This document shows positions 2,123-61,505 of a DNA stretch of 64,000 bases, in pieces. The stretch covers positions 32,588,950-32,652,949 of the forward strand of contig OX439047.1 of the NCBI GenBank assembly GCA_949317995.1, given 5' to 3'. A model generated the notes under the pieces. That model was not told where the DNA came from, did no database searches, and saw only the letters and a program-made list of their open reading frames with translations. This DNA is from Acholoe squamosa (lineage: Eukaryota; Annelida; Polychaeta; Phyllodocida; Polynoidae). Made by a program: the position numbers and the translations under genes. The first letter of the stretch is position 1. Each line of letters opens with the position of its first letter.

Positions 2123-2184
2123 CTAAATGCCAAACAAAAAGGTCATCCTGGAAGAGAAAGAACTAAATACAAAAGCCTACTCAC

Positions 2185-5100
2185 CTCAAGTATTTGATTA
2201 TCAGGCAGTGATGGCTTTGGCTGCTCATTATATGGGGTCTCTGCCTCCTTCTTATCTCCATCTATGCTCGAAGACACGGATGCACACACCTCTCTTCCAT
2301 TATCAGTTGACATAGTAATGAAGTCCTCAAGAGAAATGAATTCGCGATCTGGACCAGAACCATCCCCAAGAGCATCAAGTTTTTCCTGCTGATGATGACC
2401 CTTTGGACTGTTTTTTTCATTGGCATTTTTCACCATGGAGTTTGTTACTGGAGCCACAGTTAAGACAGTAGACATTTGTTCCTGTGTCACCTCTTGCATG
2501 GTTGTTGCAGGGTTTGCCTCAACTTCAGGAATAGTTGGTAAACTAGTAGCCTTGTCTATTTCACATGAAGAGTCCATAGGAATATTAGGCTGAGTAACTG
2601 AATCAGGAGCTGCTGGATTCTTGGATAGGACTATAGGTAGTGCAGTCTCCCCCATGAAAGGAGTGGGTTGTGGCACTACTCCCTGTAGAATGGTTTGGGA
2701 AGCTACAGGCATTTCCTGTTCAGAGATGTTTGCTACTGCAGGCACTTCAGTATTTTCAGAGTCTCTATTGCTCATTTGTAGCATTCTTTGTGTAGCTGGG
2801 AACTGTGTAGGTGAGGGTGTCTTCTGTTGATGCGATGGCAATTGTTGATGTGTCTGAAGTATTTGTTTCTGTTGACCTTGAAGAGTCTGCTGTTGTTTCT
2901 GCTGGATTTGCAATTGGTTGTTGATGTTAAACTGTAGCTGTGATTGATATTGCCAGAGTTCTGGTTGGTTGTTTATAGGGGCATTGCTGTTCAATACATC
3001 CAACATAGACCGTGGCATATTGTGAGACATATATCCAGAAAGTGTAGGACTTGGGGCACTAGCAGTTGTCTGCTTACTTGCTTGGACCTGCATTTGTGGA
3101 GGGGTCTGCATAACTCCACGATCTTGCAGTCCACTGCAATTCGGCTGAGTAGTAGGAGCAGGATAAGATCCAGCTAGTAGATTTCTTTGCTCCGTGCCTG
3201 GAGAAGGTGCTTTTGGCAGTGTTGATGGGGCAATCACTAGTGGAATTTGGCTGTGCAATTTTGCATTTAACAGCTGTTGTTGGCCATTTGGAGATTTCTC
3301 CCTTAAACTCCTTTCACACTGTGCTGATACCTGTGGTTCAATAACAACAGGTGAAATATCATCTTCACTGGCAAAGCATGAAGTGGCGGCTGGAGTTGGT
3401 GGAGGTTCAATGACTATTGGTTGTTGGTTCTCTAGGGTATACCTTTCTTCAGCTGACAGAGGTGGTATAACTGGTTCATTGGGTGGCATCTCTGGTTCGA
3501 TCTGCACAGGAGAAGTACTGTCTGGAATAGGTTCAATAACTAACACTTGGGGCTCATTCTTCCTTGATTGTTCTTGTCCAGTAATTCTTGCTATAGTTTG
3601 CATGATGTTGTTGGCTGTTGTTGCAGATAGATACATATCAAGGTTACCACTTGCAGGGAAGTCCTTTAAAGCATTCAAATATAAAAGTCCACTTTGGGCT
3701 TTTGGTCGCTGAAATGCCCTCCCTACAACATGTATCTTTTGTGTACAGAGTGCTTGAAAGATCTTTGCACGTTTGAAATCTTGACTATGCAATATAGCTG
3801 TCATCTGCTCTCTGAAGTAAGCCTTCTCATACACACTTTTATGGAGGATTTGTTTAGCAACAGACACTACATCCTCATTTGTAGGACAATTGGTCTTTTT
3901 CTCAGATTGGTATACCCACCAGTTATGAGTTGAGTGACACCTTGTTATATGCTTTGGCTTACATTCATTACGCAGGCATTTTTCTAGTATGCAGAATTGT
4001 AGGTCTTGAGATTTGGTATTGACAACCTCAATCAGTACATGAATATCCATGTTTGGATTTTTTCGTTTTGGAGTACTTGAGGTTGCTGTGGGCTCATCAT
4101 CAGTCAAATCAACAAACATTTCTTGAGGACGTCCAGGTTTTTTCCTGACTTGACTATTCTGGTCCAAGCTTGTTGGATTAGATGGCCTTGGTGGAGGTGG
4201 CATACTTTCACTTCTTGAGCTGGTTCTCCTTGATGAGAGTGTTGTATTGCTGGAAGCACTAGATGATTCTACAGTTTTATTTTGTGAAGCACTTTGACTC
4301 CCTGTCCTGCTTTGTTCAGGTGTTGAACTGCTTGATGATGATGTTCCCTTCATAAGCTCATTTACTAAACGGATTTGCTGTTCAACATGATTTGTGTCAT
4401 GTCCTTTCAGAACAGACTCAACCACAAGTGCAGCAAGACTCTGGCTATTCAAGTCACTATTTGATGATGAACTAGGTGCTGATGTGGTTGCTGTTTTGGT
4501 GCTCTTCTGTGTAGGTGTTGATAAAGTAATGGGTGTTCTACTTGAAATGGCACTGTTAGCTTGTACAGGTCTGTTCTTTTGTTGAACAGGAGATTCTGTT
4601 GTCGATGGTCGAGATGTAGGATTTCCTGCTGGTTGTCTTGCCTGTTGTGTTGTCGATGGTTGAGATGTAGGATTTCCTGCTGGTTGTCTTGCCTGTTGTG
4701 TTGTCGATGGTTGAGATTTAGGATTTACTGCTGGTTGTCTTGCAGCAGGCAATCTCTTTGCTGGCTGTGGACTTCGGAATTGAGGCTGATGATTATTTTG
4801 AATTGGTGGTGTTGGCTGACGATTTAAACTTGAACGCATACTTTGGGAAGGTTGTGGATTACATATTTGTGGGCGTGCTAGGAATCTTGTATCTGGTCGA
4901 GGATTCTGCTGAAGAGGTACCTGGCTCCTATGGTTATTGATATTGTTTTGGATCTGACCAGTCCTTGCTGAATTGTACTGCTGTGCAGGTCTGGTCTTAT
5001 TGCTCGATTCCAGATTGGCTATGGAAGCAAGAGGAATACCTCTTTGAGAAGGATTAGCTGCACTGGAAGCACGAGGATGCTGATGAGTTGGAGGACGTTG

Positions 5101-7231
5101 AAAATTTTGAGCTGGTATTTGTGGTCTTTGATACACTGCACTTGAATGCATGGTCTGTGCTTGAAGCTCTGCTGCAAATCTGGTAAGTTCCATAGTTATA
5201 TTGCCATGTGCTGCTGATGATTGCATGGTCATGTTTGGGAACTGTCCATGTATTCCCATGTTCACGCCATACACACTGCCTGGTGCATTTTGATGGCTGT
5301 GCGATATAGCATTATTGAACTCCTGTCTTTGTGGTCTAACTCGAAATTCATGAAACTGACCATATCCTTCTCGTCCTTGCATGCCCATGCCTAGAGGTCC
5401 ACGCCAAGCATTAGCCTGATTGACTTGCCAAGGAGCTAAATCCCTGGAAGTGTTATATTCGGTCAACTGATTTGGTTGACTGGTGTTTCCATAATACTGA
5501 TTTTGGTTGGCACTTCCAGAATTAGTCAAAGCAGTTTGTTGAGGGTGTGTGAATGACATTCCAGTGTTCAGTTGCCTTGTACTTGCCTGATCTTGTGCAA
5601 CTGTCAACCTGCTAACAGTATTATGTTGTGGCATTTCAGGTGGAAGCATCATACCCCCATGGGCAATTCTGCTAGACCTTTGAGGAGACGATGAGGGTAA
5701 TTGGACAGGGTGAACTTGAGTACCTCGATGTGGTAACACTGGTGATTGCAGAGGCAAAGCAAATGCACCTTGATGATCAGGGGTTGGAGATGAGTTAGTC
5801 TGCATTACAGGACTATGTTGTGACAGTGAGCAAGATGGAATAGCTGGTGAGGTAACACTGTGATGTGCTTGCATTGGTGATTGAGTAGGCTGTGCTACAT
5901 TGAAGTTACTCCATGGCATCATATGAGGCTGAATATGTGGTTCTGGGAATATTGAAGTTAACGCATCAAAGTCTCTTTGCTCTGATAAATTCAGGTCAGG
6001 TATTTGATATGTAGAAGGCCCAAGGAGAGGTCGAGACACATTGCTTATAGGTGCAGTGGAAATACTTGTACTATTCTTAACAGTGCCACTATTTGTCACT
6101 TGCTGAGAAACAAGAGTTGACACTCTCTCTTGTTGTTGGAAGGAAGAAGACTGTATTGTAGATGGACTCTTAGATATTGGTTGCCCAGCAGGCAATGACT
6201 GCCCGCAATGGTCTCTGTTTGAAACTGTTCGAGACGATTGTGTTATGGCAGATGCTACATGATGTCTTGAAATAGGTGTATCCTGTAAATTGTTTGAAAC
6301 AACAGGTACTTTCTCAGTGGGATTCGACACCAGTTGTAACTTATCAACTGGACTAGAAGTACTATGAGAGGGGTTGCTTTGTTCACTTGTGATAGGTGAA
6401 GAGGTAGGGTATTCTTTATCTGTCACCACTACAGAATCCTCTAAATCTTTTGATACACTGTTTTCATTGTTGATCAAAGATGCTATAGAGTAGTCAAATG
6501 AGATATTTGAAGCTACTGGGACATAATCATTGCACATTTCAGGAAGTGATGACTTTGGACTTGTGTGTATAGTCTGCTGAACTGGTGTAGTTGATGCTGT
6601 TACAGTATCTACCTCTTCCATTCCAGCTTCAGCAGCCATATTACTGAGCACTGAGAGAATAGATGGCTTTTCAGTTTCAGATGCTTGAGGATAGGTTTTG
6701 CTTTCAGAGCCCTTTTGTACCTGAGCATGAACACCTTGAAAGTCATTATCACTTTGGTCCTTTTGAATATCCGGTAGATCCATGCTTGGGAGAGGGGGGA
6801 TCCTGGTTTCCCTGCTCTTATCCAGACATGTACCTTTTGGGACTTGTGTGCATTCTGGATTACTGTCTCTTTCTTGTGCGTTCACACTTGTTTGAACCAA
6901 TGGCCTTGGAGGAAGTGTTTCTCCAGAAGACTTTGTGTATGTCTGATCTCCAACAACTGCTGTGCCTGTATCAAATTCTTTTACAGATGTTGATGGACCA
7001 AGTACCACATTTTCCGCAATCTGCATTGACTTCTTGATCCTGGCCAAGTCATTTTCAGTTTTTCCAAAAAGCTTTGCAACGAAAGCCTCTGGACTCTTAT
7101 CCTTTTCCGGAAGGGTCCTCAGACTGCTTACTGTGCTGGAATCTACTGAGCTACTGCCATCTGACGTTGCGTACCGTTGAGTACCTTCGCTCCCGCCACA
7201 GGTCTGTTCTATCTCCATTTCTCTATGACAC
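2185..7231 (-). CDS. giant central exon of a Ser/Gln/Pro-rich, probably nuclear protein
   Basis: An open frame of about 1,680 codons. The first in-frame ATG is at 7216-7218, but the acceptor TTTGCAG lies just upstream at 7232, and the 13 bases between stay open, so this may be an internal exon. It ends at a canonical donor (GAG|GTGAGT, GT at 2183-2184). The product is mostly disordered: Ser/Thr/Pro-rich at first, then Gln/Asn/His-rich. A 60-base tandem repeat (about 4606-4745) encodes three PAGNPTSQPSTT-type units. A compact region follows: a hydrophobic-acidic FVDLTDDE motif (about residue 1035 from the internal ATG), matching SUMO-interaction motifs, then a KRK patch and about 165 ordered residues with clustered Cys/His (CILEKCLRNEC, HNWWVY). 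A Gln-rich stretch and an acidic tail close it. Composition suggests a chromatin or transcription cofactor. I do not recognise the family. Confidence 0.8.
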
Positions 7232-7507
7232 CTGCAAATATGAAATGAAGATGAGTAAATGAATAATGGTCAACAGTGTTGATTGAATACATATTATGAG
7301 AGTATACTTCAAACAGAGAACTAAATGGAAAGGAAATGAGCATGAAATATTTTCTCTATTTGAGTATATCCAATAATTGAGTATCAGAACATTTATGGTT
7401 TCAGTGAAGATATAAGAACCCTGTTGAGTAACAGATTTAATCCAAGTTTCGTTTCTCACAAAAACCCTAGACTTTCCAGACACAAAGATTAGGTAGCTTA
7501 AGCTTTA

Positions 7508-49030: not shown

Positions 49031-49742
49031 AAAAAAAAAGTGCAAGTTGCTTCAGTTTTGGCAAGAAAAAAAAATGATTTGTAAAGGTAGGGAAGTTTAA
49101 TGCATTCATCTGTTATAAAATATATATTATGCTTTCCTCAGACATCCCACTCAATGATTGTCACTGCCATCAGTGTCAGTGTTGGTCCACTACTCTATCC
49201 TACCTCTAACCCAGGTTCCATACCACTTTGAAATGCCCTTTAAGTTGGATTCATTTAACCAAAGGACCCCATATATAGGTTGATCTATGCGAGTAAGATA
49301 GATCATTGAGAATTCAGTAGAAAGATTCAAATGACCCAACTTCTATTCTATTTGATAAATTTCACAATTCAAAAACCCATTGGTAATTTAGGGATTGCTC
49401 ATTACTCATCAACAGGCCTGAGGGGTGGGGTAGATTGCCATACAGATGTGCAGAAATCTGAAAGTTTTATGACCCCTCCCTCTTGGACAGATTGCCCTGG
49501 TCATCCCTACAGTAGTTCACAGAAAAGGCATGACATTTTTTTTGCCCCCTTCCCCACTTGAGGTGTCAAAATTATTTTCCTCCCTCCCCCCTCAATCTGC
49601 ATCCTGCTCCCCCTGTTGATGAATCATGAACTCTCCCTTGGAAACAAACACATTATACTCTCCTTTTTCTAAATGGGAATCTAGGGGTTATGCCTTATAT
49701 GCCTTACAGTAAAATGATTGCTTTGTAAGTGTGATAATATAT
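49031..49742. other. flank left of the 8.2-kb transposon, nothing identified
   Basis: AT-rich DNA ending AATATAT at the element boundary. No gene seen. Confidence 0.5.
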
Positions 49743-49771
49743 GGTAGATAGGCACCACTTGTCGTCATTTG
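49743..49771 (+). repeat. left terminal inverted repeat of the 8.2-kb transposon
   Basis: Begins GGTAGATAGGCACCACTTGT and ends CATTTG. It differs from the right end at one position (A for C at base 4). The similarity stops abruptly at base 29. Confidence 0.95.
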
Positions 49772-50122
49772 ACCGTTTTGCCTTCTATGCTTAAAAAATA
49801 ATTCAAAATGGAACCTATATGTGTTATTATCATTTATTCTGATAGCCCTTGGTTGGAGCTACATGGGGAACCCTGGTTTTACATGTATCTGAGGTATATT
49901 TTGGGAGTCAGGGGCTTAAAAACTAGCCAAAAAGGTTCGTTTTTTAACGAGAAAATTAAAAAATCTACATATACAGGCGAAATTTTTTTTTTTAAAGTAG
50001 GAGGGCAGGTGTATATTATTAGGTATGATTAGAATTATTCAAAGATTTTTTTAATACCATTTGGCCATGTATAGACTGATTTATTTTCATGCTGCAAGCA
50101 AAAAAGTGTTTGGCAAGTTTTC

Positions 50123-50886
50123 GAGGCGTTCGTGTGACGCCCAAAGATGTTGGTATAACTCTAATATAATTATGCTACATGGACTAATGAAATATGTCAA
50201 GTTAAAGCATAACTTCTACCTGTATATCCATAAAAAAATTGGCAGCCTAGGTCCAACATAGAGCAGTACACATGGGGGCAAGCATGCTGGGGTAGTCCTA
50301 GGCCTAAGTCAATGGGCGATTTGTGTGATCCCCTGTTTTCATACATATGTGTGTGTCACTGCTAGGATTTTTATATTTAACTATCCTTATTATTATCAAT
50401 ACATACCTACACATGGAAGGTATAAGACCTGTGAGGGGCATCTACCCATTATCAGTACAGCCATAGATATCACTATAATAAGGTTCCGAGCAATGCGGGG
50501 CGATTCGTATAACGCCCGGCGAACCATGTGACGCCTGGCGGTTTGAAAGGGTACTAATAGCCCCACACGCTGCCTGGTGTTATATTGATGAACTCAACGT
50601 ATGCAGAGGCTGGACAGCGTCTTCGCCGATCGGAGAAACGCTAGAAAAGGTAAGAAATAGATGAAATAATATGTTTTTATCCTGTTATTATGGACAAACT
50701 TGGAGAAATTCTGTAGAATACATGTTATAGAAGCTATATATTGACCGAAAAGTGCAAAATAGGCCCGTAACTCGCTGCATTGGCATATTATCGTTACGCA
50801 CGGTCAATCTGGTGAAGGTAGAACTAGTATTTCTATGTTAAACCAATGCAGGAGTCTGTCAGTGTCGGGCGTCACACGAATCGCCC
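50123..50886. repeat. left cluster of 20-base iterons
   Basis: Near-palindromes of the GGGCGATTCGTGTGACGCCC type at 50123-50142, 50314-50333 and 50498-50517 (plus), a degenerate one at 50518-50535, and an exact copy on the minus strand at 50867-50886. The GGGCG and CGCCC ends pair with each other while the ATTCGTGTGA core gives direction. They lie 0.4-1.1 kb inside the left end, upstream of and around the 5' untranslated exon. Probable transposase-binding sites; that role is inferred. Confidence 0.9.
50560..50649 (+). other. candidate 5' untranslated exon of the transposase gene
   Basis: A good donor, AAAAG|GTAAGA, ends at 50649 before a long intron leading to the acceptor at 51376. The upstream edge is not visible. 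CpG content is raised (GCGTCTTCGCCGATCGG). Confidence 0.4.
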
Positions 50887-51376
50887 ATGACGATCAACCC
50901 TCAGTCATGTCGTGTTTGCTATGTATTATGATGTCCTATGGGATTTTATTGAAATAGCTAATGAACCTGGGGTTGTGCAAAGGTTTTTTAGCACCTCCCA
51001 CGCCGCGTAGCAGCGGTACCGCGAAGCGGTACAGGAGTGCGCTATGATGATTGCATTTGCCCCATGTGATGAGGTCTCACAATACAAAATTACTGAATAG
51101 ATAAATTGATAATTGTGAAATCTTCTTTATGTCTGCTTTTATGAGACTGGTATACCAACATTAGCGGCGGGAGGCGTTTTTTTACGCAGTCACAACCGCA
51201 TTTCTTGTTACCATACAATTCAGTAGTGGCATGTTGAGTTATAAACAGGGAATCCTCAATTACTATTGTAGATGAGCATGCAATGCCTCCCCCTCCCCCC
51301 CCTTTTTACATTCTATTCTTGCCAATTCTACCATGCTGAAGGTATATATATAATATATCTGCTTCCTCCTTTTCAG

Positions 51377-51503
51377 ATGCCTTACAAGGACCCTAAAAGC
51401 CCTACAGCTAAGGCCAACCAGGCTGCTAGGAGTAACAATTCGTACCATCTTAACAAGCACAAGCCAGAATATAAAGTGGCCAAGAAACTGTGCGATGATG
51501 CAA
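51377..51503 (+). CDS. candidate first coding exon of the transposase gene
   Basis: The acceptor TTTTCAG is directly followed by ATG (51377). The frame (MPYKDPKSPTAKANQAARSN...) is basic and open for 44 codons. The only plausible donor (GTTTGT after 51503) leaves phase 1, which does not fit the next exon (phase 0). The adjacent (AAT)n tract and the inserted MITE may have damaged the original donor. Confidence 0.5.
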
Positions 51504-51522
51504 GTTTGTAATGATATTATCG

Positions 51523-51523
51523 C

Positions 51524-51579
<56 letters not shown>

Positions 51580-51580
51580 G
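51523..51580. repeat. (AAT)n microsatellite
   Basis: About 18 AAT units with one TAG variant, directly after the candidate first coding exon. Confidence 0.97.
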
Positions 51581-51592
51581 TAATAATGACCA

Positions 51593-52062
51593 TATGTGAC
51601 CCATCCTAACAAAGTAGTACTGAAGTTGCACATTTAGAAGCCTAGATATAGGCTTCTCAAGTGGTATAGTGTCAAAAATATCAGATTTTTTTAAATTGAT
51701 ATTTTAGCGTTTTTCTAACCTATGGGTAGATATCTTTCAGAATCCTTGCCTACTAAACTGAATTTAAGCCCCAAATGCCTAGAAGACATAGCTATAGTTT
51801 TCTTGGTTATATAGAATTACATGGGAATTATATAGGATTCATAAATTATTACATGTTTAAAATGTCAATTATCTCAGTTTAATCAATTTTTAATTCATCC
51901 GACTAAATTTACCGACGGAAGATCCTTAGAGGACCACCTGGTTCAAATATGCAAGTGTTATATACCAAATGAAAGCTCTTGATGAGCTGTAAATGAATAT
52001 GTCAATAACTAAACATTTTGTATGTGCGACTTCCGTACCATTTTGTAAGGATGGGTCACATA
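51593..52062. mobile_element. MITE inserted in a transposase intron
   Basis: TATGTGACCCATCCTAACAA at the left is matched inverted at the right (TTGTAAGGATGGGTCACATA), one mismatch. The interior is AT-rich with no coding frame. A nested insertion within the 8.2-kb element. Confidence 0.9.
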
Positions 52063-52102
52063 TAACCATTATACATGGCTAAGAGATATCATCCATTTAC
52101 AG

Positions 52103-52220
52103 AATTATGCACCCAAGAGGAAAGGCATTGCCAAGCTCCCACCAGACCTTCAGGAATCAAGGAGGGCTTCAAAAAGGAAGTATAAAGCCAAGAAAAATGC
52201 CGAGAAGGAAGCAGAAAAGG
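52103..52220 (+). CDS. transposase gene, basic exon
   Basis: The acceptor ..CCATTTACAG and donor AAAAGG|GTAAGT bound 39 codons plus one base (NYAPKRKGIAKLPPDLQESR, then Lys/Arg-rich). High charge suggests a DNA-binding or nuclear-localising segment. It ends in phase 1, matching the next exon. Confidence 0.7.
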
Positions 52221-52413
52221 GTAAGTACAATGTATGAGGTTTTCTACAGGTGAATAGTCTAAGCTATTTAGTAGTACAATGAGACGGGAGATTCGTGTGA
52301 TGCCCAGGTGTTTGGCCATTTCTGTAGTCTTAACCCTCCTTAAAATGCTCTACTATTGGTAATATCTTTACATGTTTAACTCAAAGTAATTATTATTAAT
52401 TTCCTTTTTTCAG

Positions 52414-52705
52414 CTGCAACAGCAGCAGCGGCAGCCCAAGATGATGAGGGGTCACCGGCAGCGCCACCCACAGTGCCACCCGCAGTGCCACCCGCAGCGC
52501 CACCCGCAGCGCCACCCGCAGTGCCACCCGCAGTGCCACCCACAGCACCACCCGCAGTGCCACCCACAGCGCCACCTGAAGGGCCTCGCGCAGATCCTTC
52601 TGGTAAAGGAAAGGGCAAAGGGAAGAGGTCAAAAAGACTAGAGGGAGAAGAGCCTGCAGAGGCAGCCGCGTTGCCGGAGGAGCGAAGGAAGGGAGTCTCC
52701 AGCCG
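52414..52705 (+). CDS. transposase gene, Ala/Pro-repeat exon
   Basis: The acceptor TTTTTTCAG opens an exon in phase 1 that continues the previous frame: an Ala run, an acidic QDDEG, then about a dozen PPAV/PPAAPP units from a 12-15 base CCACCCGCAGTG repeat, then a basic GKGKGKRSKR stretch. The donor AGCCG|GTAAGT ends in phase 2. That phase fits the long catalytic exon at 53474 and also the short terminal exon at 52836. Confidence 0.75.
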
Positions 52706-52835
52706 GTAAGTAAAATTCCTTTTATTTCTTTAATTTATTAACTATTCATTATCTAATTATTCCATGTTATTTTATTGTGTGGAAATGTTTGTTAACATTT
52801 TGTTTCAAAGTAATTTCCCTTTTATTCCAGCACAG

Positions 52836-52935
52836 AGGTTGGGAAGTGAGTCGGAAGAAGAAGAAGCCACAATCCCCCACAAAGAGTCCCAGGACAAGAT
52901 TTGCCGGCCTGCTGTGTCTTCAGAAAAAGAAATAA
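52836..52935 (+). CDS. possible alternative terminal exon giving a short, catalytic-domain-free protein
   Basis: The acceptor CCAGCACAG joins in phase 2 to the Ala/Pro exon and gives 33 residues, very basic (GWEVSRKKKKPQSPTKSPRT...), then TAA at 52933-52935. AATAAA signals follow at 53144 and 53184, before the catalytic exon. A shifted frame over the same bases is also open and acidic. If used, this isoform would keep the N-terminal part but lack the catalytic region. Confidence 0.35.
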
Positions 52936-53143
52936 TTATATTCCACTAAATTAAGATTTTAACATATTATATTTACAGACAGACCGCAGGGTGCTTTATG
53001 TTACTCAAGATTCTCTTATATCAGAAAGCAAAAAAGGAGTGCTTAGTATACACATGAATGTAAGAAAAAGATATTAATGTAGAACTGTAAAATTATCATA
53101 TATAATATTTATCTGTTAAAGAAGACTATCTATATTTAAGGGT

Positions 53144-53189
53144 AATAAAAGAGTAATATATATAAAATATATTTTCAAACTACAATAAA
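53144..53189 (+). terminator. two AATAAA signals inside the transposase gene
   Basis: AATAAA at 53144-53149 and 53184-53189 lie between the short terminal exon and the catalytic exon, in AT-rich DNA. They could end a short transcript. Confidence 0.4.
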
Positions 53190-53473
53190 AGTCGTTCTTT
53201 TTGTACATGTCCAGTCTTCCTCTCATCATTGCCTTTATAGAATGTGTACTGCAGAGGGAGATTCGTGTAACTCCCGGGGCTTGGCCGTTTCTGTAGTCTT
53301 AACCCTCCTATGTGATGTAGTAGTACAACAGCGATGGGAGATTCGTGTGACGCCCGCGCGTTTGGATGTTTCTGTTACCTTAACCCTCCTCTCATGGAGA
53401 ATCCTCTAATCCCCTGCACTTTAGAGTCATAGCAAACAAACTTATAATGCTTCACATCTTTTATTAATTACAG

Positions 53474-56123
53474 TCTTGTTGTTGCCTTGCCCTTCTCACG
53501 CCAGAGTAAGGCAAGTCAACTCAAGAAGGAGCTGAAAAGTGCTCAGGATGAGGTGGTATTGCTGTGTAAGCAGCTTGCCTCTGCAGCCTCTGCAGCAATG
53601 AGACCTCCCACTGCCGCCACTACACCACGTGTCGCCACTTCACCGCGTGTCGCCACTACACCATGTGTTGCCACTACACCACGTGTCGCCACTACACCGC
53701 GTGTCGCCACTACACCGCGTGTCGCCACTACACAGCTATCATCACCTTGTGCTGGCGGTACACCTAGGCAGTCAACATCTGCCAGTACTCCGCAGCCTTC
53801 TACAGCCAGTGCCACGACTACTGGTAGTACTACACCAAGCAACGCTTGTCGCCTAGTGCGATTCTTTCATGCTCTCCAAGGCGCCACTCCACCACCGGGG
53901 TTTGATGACCCACCACCCGTGGTGGATGTTGCGCCCATTGAGGAACAAGTACCAGTTGTGCCGGTTGAACCTGCACGGGTCTAGCCACAACCACAGCTGA
54001 TCCCACCCCCTGGCATCGATGATCAACCACAACTGGAACCTGCACCGGTAGAGCCACCACCACAGCCGATCCCACCCCCTGGCATCGATGATCAACCACA
54101 ACTGGAACCTGCACCGGTAGAGCCACCACCACAGCCGATCCCACCCCTGGCTGAACCAGCACCAGCCCCTGCGTCTCCATTGCCACTAATAATGCAAAAC
54201 ATGGAGGAGTTGAACATCACTCCAACAAATGAGAGGGTGAAAAGTTTGCTCACATTACAAATTGCTGCCAGCCAGGTAAAGGCAAGCACAATCGATATTA
54301 AGAAAGGTCTTTTCCGGGAGCCTGTGGCCGGTAAAAACTATCACGGTACCCTCAGCTTGCTGGCAGAGACTGTTCAGATGTCCCGAGATTACATTTGGAA
54401 GGAGAAAGAGCCAGGCCATGCAAGAATAGACAAAACAGAGGCAACTAGGTCTTCCATCATTGAATTTATGAAACTAGAGGACAATTCTTACATGCTGCCC
54501 AATAAGAAGCATCAGACCAAAAATCAGCAACCGTCGGCTTTGGGAGACACTCTCATAAATCTTCACAGGAAGTACTGTTCCGAGTACGAGAGCATGACAA
54601 TTGAGTATTCCACCTTCCGGCGATCTAGGCCGTGGTATATTAAGCTCAATCATTTTCTCAAACGGAGTGTGTGCCTGTGTAAGGCACATGCCAACATGTC
54701 GCTGATGATGGATGCCGTACCATCGCTACCTAAGAGCACCACTCAAATGGCAAATAACTTCACTGATGAGGCTATACAGGTAGAGCTGGAGAAGATGAAC
54801 AAGGAGACGGTGTCCTACAAGCAATGGGAACGGGTGACCAAGAAGATAGAGAGTATAGTGGACAAGAAAATTGTGACCAAGGAAGTCCATCATACTAAAC
54901 TTGTCACCAAGTCACAACCAAAAGAGGTGTTCATAAAGACCTTCCTTGCTGCCCTGCCAGGGTTCTGTGCACATTGTGGCAGAGTTGAGGCGCAGTACCG
55001 TGAGATGAAGAGGCTGGAGGAAAATCTGCCAGTGGGCCATGCTGTCATACTAATGGACTACTCCGAAAACTGGAACTGTGCCTATCTGCGTGAGATCACT
55101 TCAGCCTACTATTCGAAGGATCAGATAACCATACATCCTATGGTGGTGAAAATCTGATCACCAGAAGGCCTCCTCATAACTCGCACGTACGTAGGTGTGA
55201 CATCCGTTACCTCCCACTCCTTTCCAACTACCTTCACATTCATACAGAAACTGATAGAAGATATCAAAGCATCATTTTCATATGTGACATCAATACACTT
55301 CTGCACGGACAGTCCCTCCTCGCAGTACCGTAATAGGCATGTCATTCAGATGCTTCTAAGGTTTACCAGCACCTTCGGCCTCGTCGCAGCATGGAATTGG
55401 CTCGAGGCCGGGCACGGGAAAGGCCCCTGCGACGGGGTCGGAGGAGCTATGAAGCGCCTGGCTGACCGCATCGTAAAGACCAATCAGATCATCCAATCGG
55501 CAGACAACTTTGTGGAGAAGGTTGCACCAGCAACCAAGGTCCAACTTGTCCAGGTTACATCCAGGGAAGTGATGGAGTCAACAAAAGAGTTTGAGGACTG
55601 GGACAGCCCAGGTGTGGCTGGGCTTATGGAAATGCACCAAGCATGTGCTTTCCAAGGTGCCATCTATGTCCGGCGCACCTCATGCTACAGGGCTTGCTGC
55701 ATGAGCACTGGGCAGCTTGTACCGGGGTGTGCCAGATGGTACAAGACCAAGGTTGTGGCAAAGGAGGAGGAAGACGTCTGTGAAGACTCTGACGCAGAGT
55801 TCGACTTTGAGGGGGACTCAGGCTACGACACTGAGGACGAGCTTCCTCTAGCCCATCTCCCCAACTCTGAGGATGGCTCTAAGGAAGACACCCCTCTTGC
55901 CAACCTTAAGACCACCATGGAAGATGACCTCCCTCTTTCTGAGGTGAAGGCATGACTTGCTGCTGAGAGTGACAACGATGATGTCCCCCTCCCTCAGCTA
56001 GTTAGGTCGAGGGTAGCCAAGTCGAGGGCAACCAAGTTGAGGGCAACCAAGTCGACCTCCGCCAAAACCAAGGCCACCAAGGAAGTCCAAGTACATCTAC
56101 GCAGGTCATCGCGGAAGAAGTAG
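53474..56123 (+). pseudogene. transposase-like catalytic exon interrupted by three in-frame stops
   Basis: The acceptor ATTACAG precedes 53474 and phase 2 fits the exon ending at 52705. One frame runs about 880 codons with no frameshift, broken only by TAG (53982-53984), TGA (55155-55157) and TGA (55953-55955). In order: a short coiled-coil-like segment (QLKKELKSAQDEVVLLCKQL), TTPRVA repeats, a 27-residue Pro-rich repeat (where sister copies have GAG at the TAG site), then a folded region with VCLCKAHAN and FCAHCGR Cys clusters. Next come LMDYSENWN, CTDSPSSQYRNR and AGHGKGPCDGVGGAMKR, which look like Asp motifs of an RNase H-like DDE/D transposase. The tail is acidic, then basic (ending LRRSSRKK at TAG 56121-56123). 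Family not assigned. Confidence 0.8.
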
Positions 56124-56328
56124 ATGATGCTTGTGTACTAGTGTATAAACCTTTCATCCATCCTGAGCATTTCTCCATGAGCCTCCACTTGTATTCCCTG
56201 GTGGACAGGTAGGTCCGGCTTCCCCATTTGTGTGGTGCGGCCAGGGGACAGGTGGAGACTTATGAAGGAATGCTCAGAATGGATATAAAACTAAGTAGCT
56301 GTAGAGGTCTGATGGTTGCACATATATT
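56124..56328. other. 3' region of the transposase gene
   Basis: No further coding sequence. It leads into the right iteron cluster. AATAAA at 56658-56663 is the first clear poly(A) signal after the final stop. Confidence 0.4.
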
Positions 56329-57742
56329 GGGTGATTCGTGTGACGCCCAAACGGTCCAAAAAAGTTGTTAGAACCATCCTTGTTACCTTTATAATATAGT
56401 AGAATAACAGCGGAGGAGATTTGTGTAACTCCCGGGGCTTGGCCGTTTCTGTAGTCTTAACCCTCCTATGTGATACTGTATGTAGTTAGTTGTTTAGACT
56501 ACAATGATAATGGAATAATAACAATGATGATTATAACAACAATAATGATAATGAAATGATGACAACTATGAAGTCAAAAATGATAATGTTAGTTTTTAAG
56601 AGGAGTACCGGTGTCACACACCCACTGTACAACGTTCATAACAAGTTTTTCCCTGTTAATAAATGTTATTCTCTTCAACTATGAAATGATGGCAACTATG
56701 AAGTCAAAAATGATAATGTTAGTTTTTAAGAGGAGTATCAACAATAATGATAAAGACTACAATGATAAAAGATATAATAACTATGATGATTATAACAACA
56801 ATAATGATAATGATAATGAAATGACAAGTTTTCCCCTGTTAATAAATCTTATTCTTTTCAACTATGGGTCAGATGTCTTGTTCTCGAAGTGTTGTATGAA
56901 GAGATTCGTGTAACTCCCGTGTTTGATCATTTCTTTGGTCTTAACCCTCCTATGTAGCCTTAACTATATATTTACCTGAACCTGGAGATTCGTGTAACGC
57001 CCTGTTTCAGCAGCTTTCAAGTTTAACAACAATACCAGTACAGCTAAAACTGAATATATATGGGAGGAATTATAATGCCCCAACATACTAACACCAACAA
57101 ATACCAACCAATGATATAATATTAGCTGGAAATTGATATTTTCCCAACAAAGTAAAAAAACCCTGAAAATATGTTGAAAAGATAGCCCCAAATTCCTTTC
57201 TATCACATAATTCCAAAGCTTATACAGTAGCCAATGTCTATATTTTGAAGAATAACTACAAATCTAAGGTAGGAAAAGAGAATGGATAGTGTGGAGATAC
57301 CTAGCAAACCCTATGCTTAGGGACCATTCGGGCGTCACACGAATCGCCTATCGTGGCGATTCGTGTGACGCCCTGTACAGGGCCTCTCCCGGTCTTATGC
57401 TTTAAGGTGGCCCTAACAATGATATGCCAGGCTGAACCTACGGTAATCCTTAACCTCTTCATGTCAAACATGGTAATATAAGCCAATTTTACAAGCAGCT
57501 ATGGTATTTGATAAGTAGGGGTGTAAGAAGCCCAGCATCCTCTTTCTACTGCACAAATTCACAACATTTTCTCTCGTACTGGAAAATGATTAAAATCACT
57601 GTTAATCTTAATGTTATATGGTTCATATTACAGCCTAAGGTGTTTATTTTGATTATCATTTACAAAATTAAAGTTAGGTATAATATATATGCTATTAGGG
57701 TAGTCTGCTCTGCATAAGGTTTAGGCGTCACACGAATCGCCC
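56329..57742. repeat. right cluster of 20-base iterons
   Basis: Plus-oriented copies at 56329-56348, 56414-56433, 56899-56918 and 56983-57002; a facing pair at 57330-57349 (minus) and 57354-57373 (plus); and a minus copy at 57723-57742, about 170 bases from the right end. Some carry the GTGTAACTCCC variant and the TTAACCCTCCT tail. The array mirrors the left cluster, with outermost copies nearest each end. Confidence 0.9.
56515..56870. repeat. imperfect tandem duplication of ~145 bases
   Basis: AACTATGAAGTCAAAAATGA followed by TAATGTTAGTTTTTAAGAGG occurs twice (near 56563 and 56695), and CCTGTTAATAAAT also occurs twice (56652 and 56837), within a GATAATGA-rich block. Confidence 0.8.
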
Positions 57743-57909
57743 CTGTCATTTTTCAGTCTCGGACATGCCATCTTTGCTGTGGTGGTGTAAGTACAGTTTT
57801 CATATTTAACCTACCCCAATATATGGATGTTATGGTCCAATCCCGGTAGTATACACACAAAAAAACTTTTACATGTCCTACTATATTTATTCTGGGGCCC
57901 CTCCCACCC

Positions 57910-57936
57910 CAAATGACGACAAGTGGTGCCTATCGA

Positions 57937-57938
<2 letters not shown>
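57910..57938 (-). repeat. right terminal inverted repeat of the 8.2-kb transposon
   Basis: Reads CAAATGACGACAAGTGGTGC then CTATCGACC on the plus strand, the inverse of the left end with one mismatch. It is followed at once by (AT)n. Confidence 0.95.

Positions 57939-58010
<72 letters not shown>
57939..58010. repeat. (AT)36 microsatellite between two mobile elements
   Basis: A pure AT run whose left edge is the transposon end and whose right edge is the start of an LTR (TGTAGCGAATTCC at 58011). Confidence 0.98.
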
Positions 58011-59969: not shown

Positions 59970-60990
59970 AAAAGGTAGCCGGCTATCCCAATCCCTCTGA
60001 TCTCACCGTGGTGGCCAGCAGCATCTCTATTGTTCTGTTGGCTCGCTCTACCATCCCATCACTCTGGGGTCTAAAAGCACAGGTTCTTGTCTGGCGGATT
60101 TCCAGGAGAGCCATCACTTCTCGGAACAAGGCCGCTTGAAAGTTACGTCCCTGATCCGTATGCAGATCCTCCGGAGGCCCCAGCCGACACACAAATTCTT
60201 CCACAAATACCCGTGCCACTGTGCTAGCTTCCTGGTTCGGGATGGCATAGGCCTCTGTCCACTTGGTGAAGTAATAGGCTGTCACTAAAATGTACCTGTT
60301 TCCTCTGTCCGTGACAGGTAGGGGACACATGACGTCCGTTGCTATCCTCTGCAGGGGCAGCCCGGCTCCAACATGCCCCATCTTCGCCCAATGTGGCGGC
60401 GGAACCCCCTTTCTCCGAATGCAAGCCTCACACCTGGCACACCATCTTTTCACATCCCGGTGAAACTCCGGCCAATAGAACCCCTGCTGGACCCTCTTAG
60501 TGGTCCGAGTCCGTCCCAGGTGGCCTGCCAATGGAACCCCCTGAGCCTCATGTAGGACTTCCCTCCGACTGTCCTTGGGCACCGCTATCTGCCCCGTCTC
60601 CTGCCCCGTCACGTCCCGCCACTTCCTCACTAGGATACCGTTCCTCAGCTCCAGCCTACTGAACTGGGCCCTCCAAGCGTGCTGCTCATAGCTAAAATCA
60701 CTGGCCTTGTCCACGGAGGGGGGGCGCCCCAGGATAACCAAATTGGGAACCTCCCGGAGCAGTGCATCCTCTTCCTGGAGCTGCCCCCAGTCTCTCGGCT
60801 CCGTCTCCGACTCAGTCGTCGAAGCAGGCTCCCCCTGCAGTCGCACCTCTTGGCTGCAGGTCAAGACCCTACAGGTAGCCAGTTCCTCCTCCAGGGGCTC
60901 CCCCCACCCGCACTGCCTGCAGGGGTCCCTAGACAGGCCATTGGCATTTCCATGTTGCTTCCCCGGCCTATGCTTGACCCTGATATCGTA
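59970..60990 (-). pseudogene. Ty3/gypsy integrase (zinc finger and catalytic core)
   Basis: Shows an HHCC zinc module (HEAQGVPLAGHLGR ... CARCEAC), then the catalytic core with Asp in ATDVMCPLPV, Asp in LHTDQGRNF and Glu in MVERANRTIEM, the D,D-35-E pattern. It would insert element cDNA into the host genome. A frameshift at about 60000 (VRSEGLG then TAG) separates it from the C-terminal part, whose sequence resumes in another frame (DWDSRLPF). Confidence 0.9.
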
Positions 60991-61505
60991 GGTATCAATT
61001 ATCTGTATCCAACGAGCTAGCTGCCCCTCCAGTTCCTTGAACCCGAGCAGCCATTCAGGGACGCGTTCATACCAATATTGGCCGGCCCACCAGATAGTGT
61101 CGGAACTTCCTCAAGCCGGCAACTCCTTCCTAGTGATGCAGTAGTTCCTTTCTGCCCTCGACAGTGTACGGCTGGCGTTGGCCAGCACTCGCTCCACCCT
61201 GCTCTGCTGCTGGCTCAGGACTGCTCCGAGGCCGAGGCTGAAAGGCCAGGATAGGAGCTCCCATCAATAACTCCTTAAGTCGTGTGAATGCTGTCTGACA
61301 CCCACTCATCCATCGAAACGCCCTTCCCTTCTCGGCCAGCGTGCTCAGTGGCTTAGCTATTGTGGCGAAATCCTGGATGAACCCTCGATAATACCCGGAC
61401 AGGCCGAGGAAGCTCCTTACATCAGTAACTGTCTCCGGCGTCCCCCAGTCTCTTACAGCCGCTACCTTTCCCGGATCCGTTGATACTTCCTCCCTGCTTA
61501 TGATA
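60990..61505 (-). pseudogene. reverse transcriptase thumb / RNase H remnant
   Basis: Carries VSREEVSTDPGKVAAVRDW and RSFLGLSGYYRGFIQDFA, typical of the RT-RNase H junction, then LSRAERNYCITRKEL and HRPGKQHGNANGLSRDPC from RNase H. The RT fingers and palm, including the catalytic YxDD box, are absent: the frame goes from protease-side sequence (MMPYQPYHK) straight into the thumb. A stop follows KELPA. Confidence 0.85.

Follow-up and report, generated by a model that had tools for sequence, protein, structure and literature searches.

The 64,000-nucleotide stretch of the Acholoe squamosa genome analyzed here (contig OX439047.1; hereafter the window) holds a broken copy of a DNA transposon, one that would move by cut-and-paste and probably belongs to the Sola superfamily, closest to the published Sola2 group, a likeness by description and not by sequence. 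The element spans positions 49743–57938 (8196 bp) and is bounded by 29-nt terminal inverted repeats (TIRs), between which lie a transposase-like gene and 15 dispersed short repeats, or iterons. Its relatives in the same genome fall into two subfamilies, A and B, whose last exons form a mosaic of a diverged upstream half and a near-identical catalytic cassette.

Ends and target sites in the window and across the genome

The two TIRs of the window copy are identical at 28 of 29 positions, with the sole mismatch at position 4 (GGTA on the left, GGTC on the right), and lie within inverted-repeat arms of 35 nt (49737–49771 and 57910–57944) that are 97% complementary. ATAT stands on either side of the element. 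By itself, this target site duplication (TSD) is uninformative: with a TA tract continuing from its right copy and a TA-rich left flank, the window alone cannot prove a duplication, and the other copies decide. The TA microsatellite follows directly after the right TSD (57943 onward).

Searching the genome (1.48 Gb, 63 contigs) with each TIR gave 40 scored matches per end, of 392 and 438 candidates, at 94–100% identity. Exact matches to the 25-base TIR core number 211 (106 forward, 105 reverse), against none for the reversed control pattern; among 100 core sites listed, 30 plus-minus (head-to-head) pairs are spaced 1.2–17 kb apart, 19 of them at 6.6–7.7 kb. Of the 41 regions inspected (the window, L011–L030, and L041–L060), 30 contain both ends, which the scan did not find in the remaining 11 (L025, L027, L028, L029, L043, L045, L046, L049, L050, L056, and L059). 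Several further loci overlap with these. L001, L009, and L031 coincide with the window and L032 with L016 (the last two both figure in the table of nonsynonymous-to-synonymous rate ratios, dN/dS), and L002–L008 and L010 fall within L019, L059, L060, L020, L021, L011, L022, and L025; the tallies of ends, TSDs, and iterons count none of them twice.

Exact 4-bp TSDs flank 28 of the 30 both-ended copies (ATAT in 24, GTAT in two, TTAT and TTAA in one each). A pyrimidine directly precedes the TSD in 28 of the 30 and a purine directly follows it in 24, a preference of the form Y-ATAT-R. When the joined flanks of the 30 copies were compared with 61 local sequences, two paralogous places were found to span the junction without an element (in L029 for the flanks of L055 and in L023 for those of L019), each with one 4-base target. 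The first-pass annotation, made from the window alone, had described a DNA transposon with matched 29-base ends and proposed a search for other copies, empty sites, and target duplications; the match of its ends, its ATAT flanks, the 29 further both-ended regions, the two empty sites, and the TSDs bear out that description. Nor are the TIRs part of a larger unrelated repeat, since they stop at the element edges in the window and in the other copies.

By size, the both-ended copies comprise 11 full-length elements of 6.5–8.3 kb, 18 derivatives of 1.2–1.7 kb, and one of 3.7 kb (L030). The eight B copies compared differ pairwise by 0.1–0.8%, pointing to a recent spread of the family. Within the TIRs, the outermost GGTC is changed at 10 of 37 5′ ends and, in the same TIR type, at 2 of 29 3′ ends, and mismatches at 5′ ends occupy 15 of 148 cells at positions 1–4 versus 8 of 888 at positions 6–29; at the 5′ end, then, there seems to be little constraint on the outer four bases. 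The possibility that these bases are carried-along flank was dropped, as L013, L014, and L015 are altered there yet have exact TSDs. Two arrangements elsewhere in the genome concern the same family: five catalytic-piece matches spaced 6.36–6.42 kb apart at C9:73098097–73124495 are probably a tandem element array, and the flanks of L019 and L045, ~95 kb apart on one contig and 97–99% identical, probably reflect one insertion in a segmental duplication.

Iterons confined to the element

The iterons follow the 18-bp consensus GGCGATTCGTGTGACGCC. With up to three mismatches, the window contains 12 sites, compared with 0.01 expected from dinucleotide shuffles; with up to four, it contains 15, with starts from 50124 to 57724 and none elsewhere in the 64 kb, whereas 50 simple base shuffles averaged 0.32, in agreement with the earlier observation that the iterons are confined to the element. 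This confinement extends to the family: the 30 both-ended copies hold 287 iterons in 108.5 kb of element sequence, whereas their flanks (71.9 kb) hold none, a tally that excludes 58 further, unassignable iterons in the 11 regions without both ends. Full-length copies carry 14–16 iterons, the derivatives 4–8, and L030 carries 10. In many non-autonomous copies (L020–L060), iterons are spaced by ~170–200 bp, near the nucleosome repeat length, and 20-bp tandem pairs occur.

From these sequence patterns, we infer that the N-terminal half of the transposase would dock at the iterons. Alternatively, the iterons could serve the gene as promoters or silencers, with the TIRs sufficing for transposition. 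Of the 15 iterons in the window, five precede the coding exons, seven follow them, and three sit in presumed introns, which would suit regulation of the gene, as would a modest excess of identity in an A/B alignment of the partly ill-aligned 3′ region (78 of 126 iteron columns identical, 750 of 1436 others). Derivatives that have lost the gene nevertheless retain their 4–8 iterons, at a higher density than in full-length copies, and the iterons of three lineages show lineage-specific variants in concert (see below); we consider a purely regulatory role unlikely.

The transposase gene and its decay in the window copy

Candidate coding exons upstream of a large last exon (Table 1) make the spliced, transposase-like gene of the first-pass annotation plausible, several GT/AG sites being present, although the junctions are not fixed, since an open frame is preserved by at least 108 different combinations of exons. 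Its description of the element as complete holds for the ends only, as the interior contains two stretches foreign to sister copies and the last exon three in-frame stops (TAG at 53982, TGA at 55155, and TGA at 55953) ahead of the terminal TAG at 56121. The stop at 55155 sits between the codons of the first and second conserved aspartates. With three premature stops, the window copy is unlikely to make an enzyme, and its dN/dS relative to L014 (~0.4) is what a decaying copy would give. One of the foreign stretches (~51590–52089) stands in place of 145–211 nt of other sequence in L011, L014, and L016. A hairpin with 37-nt arms lies at 56156–56284; the window copy and L033 have the sequence that follows 56178, which L011, L014, L016, and L040 lack, making it polymorphic in both subfamilies.

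Many sister copies of the element have open reading frames (ORFs). Between A and B, the last exon gives a dS of ~0.25, a dN of ~0.03, and a dN/dS of ~0.12, a ratio driven by the upstream half, with the catalytic half nearly invariant; the protein has therefore been under purifying selection. A genome search with the catalytic piece scored 144 of 1215 candidate places, 77 of them at 73–100% identity to the window piece and 67 at 50–55%, the latter with open frames of up to 1059 amino acids. Judged by this identity, the more distant places are several putative multicopy sister families in the same genome.

The last exon would encode an RNase H–like catalytic core with three aspartates (DDD). In our alignment these are D289, D373, and D414 (spacing 84 and 41), and read by eye, D289 falls at the end of the first strand, D373 after a later strand past a long helix, and D414 after the last strand, suggesting the order seen in RNase H–like transposases. 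All three are shared with a distant relative, L154 (a 705-residue ORF; E 3.3e-29 in a local hmmsearch; 26% identity), which also retains H408, K410, and a CxCxxH motif; invariance of the triad rests on three sequences from two lineages at this level of identity. L154 lies on a single 4-kb contig (JAAEPJ010000558.1) of a 2.2-Mb bacterial metagenome-assembled genome that holds no second copy, and may be contaminating host DNA. Like the window family, it has iterons flanking its gene on both sides (eight sites versus 0.21 expected), though of a different sequence; its ends were not found.

Scans for further relatives were negative for viral contigs (two protein scans), phages (queried with the L154 protein), and prokaryote genomes (first scan). 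A pattern scan of the viral contigs gave two stretches, neither recovered by hmmsearch, and the pattern HGKGxxDGxGG gave at least 118 stretches in prokaryote genomes, among which, of those listed, L154 is the sole hmmsearch relative and the others score E 0.095 or worse.

Superfamily placement

Repbase distinguishes 20-odd superfamilies, according to the accessible parts of PMC10045372, PMC4455052, and PMC9587614. Sola elements are described, in the portions available to us, as encoding a DDD transposase and having 4-bp TSDs, a size of mostly 2–9 kb, and TIRs of 11–1124 bp (PMC10741241); for Sola2, an 888-residue transposase, TIRs of 12–21 bp, and AT-rich TSDs such as ATAT, AAAT, and ATTT are given (PMC3627910). 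The present family resembles this group in its three aspartates, a candidate DDD triad, its short TIRs, its 4-bp TSD (28 of 30 copies), which is AT-rich and mostly ATAT (24 of 28), and the 6.5–8.3-kb size of its 11 full-length copies, the last exon alone reaching ~900 residues. Sola is the best filing, short of a proven one, for an element whose superfamily the first-pass annotation had left unnamed.

Several observations weigh against this interpretation. The TIRs, at 29 bp, are longer than the 12–21 bp given for Sola2 in the accessible text of PMC3627910, and dense, lineage-specific iterons go unmentioned in the parts of the Sola descriptions we consulted. Four of the 28 TSDs (GTAT twice, TTAT, and TTAA), though AT-rich, fall outside AWWT, and two copies with both ends (L018 and L052) have no TSD. 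The two empty sites have the targets TACT and GTAT, compared with ATAT in the copies, and match the flanks at only 84% (L055) and 75% (L019). Searches of the protein against the profile libraries Pfam, NCBIfam, and PHROGs, of the kind suggested for the catalytic exon in the first-pass annotation, and against PDB sequences gave no credible match. The best PDB match, a SUMO isopeptidase (E 0.008 with a 265-residue piece, 0.06 with the 529-residue query), is taken as chance. A literature search, in a collection lacking most subscription journals and the founding Sola paper, recognized no published description of the family.

The lack of library matches would also be expected if this were a DDD/E transposon with the same cut-and-paste mechanism from an unnamed, non-Sola superfamily. 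The Sola filing leans on TSD, size, and three aspartates as described in two papers, and the sister families at 50–55% identity are numerous, making up 67 of the 144 scored places. Proteins with the HGKGxxDGxGG pattern are, however, common in invertebrate gene sets, so that such a superfamily would have had to escape notice, and no Sola feature that could be tested failed; we regard this possibility as improbable.

It is less probable still that the family belongs to another named superfamily with a TSD of 4 bp or similar, namely, Academ, Kolobok, piggyBac, or Ginger. Academ elements carry an XPG nuclease domain; the last-exon core and two short exon pieces, the parts of the gene given to Pfam, gave no XPG, integrase core, or transposase match. 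TSDs of about 4 bp do occur in several of these superfamilies, and TTAA itself flanks one copy here. The published descriptions, as far as these were accessible, restrict Kolobok and piggyBac to TTAA, whereas TTAA is found here in 1 of 28 TSDs and ATAT in 24. Ginger has TSDs of 4–5 bp according to the same sources and a Gypsy-like integrase core; the present protein has no rve match, though a neighboring Gypsy-type ORF gives one. Finally, hAT, MuDR, P, Kolobok, and Dada are described there as carrying a C/DxxH motif after the second aspartate, and by eye no such motif lies between the second and third aspartates here, the residues before the conserved histidine reading EAGH in the window family and ATSH in L154.

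A catalytic cassette shared between subfamilies with different iterons

In the last exon, A and B diverge by 17–19% over the first 830 alignment columns, whereas over the remaining 1114 columns B differs from the closest A copies (L013 and L014) by 0.3–0.5%. All 29 fixed amino acid differences fall in columns 1–282 of the 529-residue alignment, and none in columns 283–529; synonymous changes number 102 in ~178 sites upstream versus 2 in ~168 catalytic sites. The tail (530–640), compared between L014 and L033, has no synonymous and two amino acid changes. The 55 bases directly past the stop are identical between A and B, and beyond the cassette the non-coding DNA has diverged, the best-matching piece there being 608 bp at 76%. 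Relative to the window, the right edge of the cassette is ragged, L033 remaining close up to 56284 and L040 ending at 56178.

Strong selection holding the catalytic half identical, with no cassette copied, would explain the absence of fixed amino acid differences there and is nonetheless scarcely credible, as the synonymous sites are near-identical too and the exact match past the stop is not explained by selection on the protein. The catalytic part of B falls within the diversity of A (0.27–0.36% from L014, while L014 and L021 differ by 3.4%), and transfer of the cassette from A to B is thus most likely, for which gap repair after excision could have provided a route.

The iterons differ between the subfamilies as well. 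At position 11, 145 of the 165 A sites have G, whereas all 50 B sites have C, as do 95 of 112 sites of the 18 non-autonomous copies; at each of the three orthologous iterons nearest the 3′ end, L014 and L033 differ alike at positions 11 and 13. The blunter measure of column identity given above is weaker. B elements, meanwhile, carry an exact TIR core at each end (e.g., C7:27905069–27912238 and C7:74611021–74618026). In these comparisons, the TIR core and the iterons are two candidate cis-signals that evolve separately. On the simplest reading, the catalytic part would serve the constant end and the N-terminal half would read the iterons, the amino acid and iteron differences co-occurring in a single A/B contrast.

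Table 1. Coordinates of features of the transposon copy in the window.
Feature	Start	End	Strand	Remarks
Left TSD	49739	49742	.	ATAT; flank comparison, backed by TSDs of other copies
5′ TIR	49743	49771	+	outer end GGTA where GGTC is usual
Iteron	50124	50141	+	4 mismatches
Iteron	50315	50332	+	
Iteron	50499	50516	+	tandem pair with 50518
Iteron	50518	50535	+	
Iteron	50868	50885	-	exact
Stretch missing from sisters L011, L014, L016	50885	51360	.	476 bp; copy alignment
Candidate 5′ coding exon	51377	51507	+	MPYKDPK...; donor unfixed
MITE-like (miniature inverted-repeat transposable element) stretch	51583	52072	.	51-nt terminal inverted repeats (84% complementary); presumed intron; unmatched in L011, L014, L016
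Candidate coding exon	52103	52220	+	NYAPKRKG...; basic; GTAAGT next
Iteron	52287	52304	+	presumed intron
Candidate coding exon	52414	52705	+	proline/alanine repeats; GTAAGT next
Iteron	53257	53274	+	presumed intron
Iteron	53337	53354	+	presumed intron
Large last exon of transposase gene	53474	56123	+	terminal stop 56121–56123
Cassette near-identical between A and B	55010	56178	+	left edge ~54860–55010; match to L033 extends to 56284
First conserved aspartate codon	55056	55058	+	MDYSENW
Second conserved aspartate codon	55308	55310	+	TDSPSSQ; 3′ of stop 55155
Third conserved aspartate codon	55431	55433	+	HGKGPCDG
Iteron	56330	56347	+	
Iteron	56415	56432	+	4 mismatches
Iteron	56900	56917	+	4 mismatches
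Iteron	56984	57001	+	
Iteron	57331	57348	-	exact; inverted pair with 57355
Iteron	57355	57372	+	exact
Iteron	57724	57741	-	exact
3′ TIR	57910	57938	-	end comparison and inverted-repeat search
Right TSD	57939	57942	.	ATAT; first bases of TA tract

Two other open frames of the window lie outside the element. The ORF at 59986–61110 (minus strand) contains integrase zinc-binding and rve domains and by its look belongs to a Gypsy-type long terminal repeat retrotransposon, and a Q-, S-, and P-rich open frame of 1708 residues (2146–7269, minus strand) has no Pfam match at E 0.01.

Discussion

Taken as a Sola-like transposon, the family would work as follows. In sister elements, the transposase would come from a probably spliced gene, with the RNase H–like DDD core in its last exon. 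On its own element the enzyme would recognize both the 29-bp ends, which have a near-invariant inner core, and the ~15 dispersed iterons, the latter bound through the protein half upstream of the catalytic core. Excised ends would be joined to target DNA cut with a 4-bp stagger, preferably at YATATR, giving rise to the 4-bp TSD, and the 1.2–1.7-kb derivatives, which keep the ends and a few iterons, would be mobilized in trans.

Short repeats inside the ends are also present in Kat1 (hAT-type), Galileo (P-type), and Ac/Ds, and in Kat1 and Galileo they are tied to the transposase, according to the accessible parts of the published accounts (PMC4763223, PMC3688188, and PMC3260210). The present family differs from these systems in having 14–16 copies of an 18-bp repeat spread upstream of the gene, in its presumed introns, and downstream of it in 11 full-length copies, in its tandem and inverted iteron pairs, and in a transposase of another kind.

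The A/B mosaic raises the possibility, which we advance tentatively and at somewhat less than even confidence, of a modular transposase, in which the N-terminal half reads a lineage-specific iteron code and a catalytic cassette that reads or tolerates the constant TIR is copied between subfamilies. If this were true, new subfamilies would gain a new iteron code with ends and chemistry unchanged, and an autonomous lineage could shed or recruit non-autonomous passengers by a shift of code. The family offers defined ends and TSDs, many open frames, B copies that are nearly identical, and two separately evolving putative cis-signals, and with two natural variants of one enzyme, the role of subterminal repeats and the compatibility between transposon and passenger would become directly testable.

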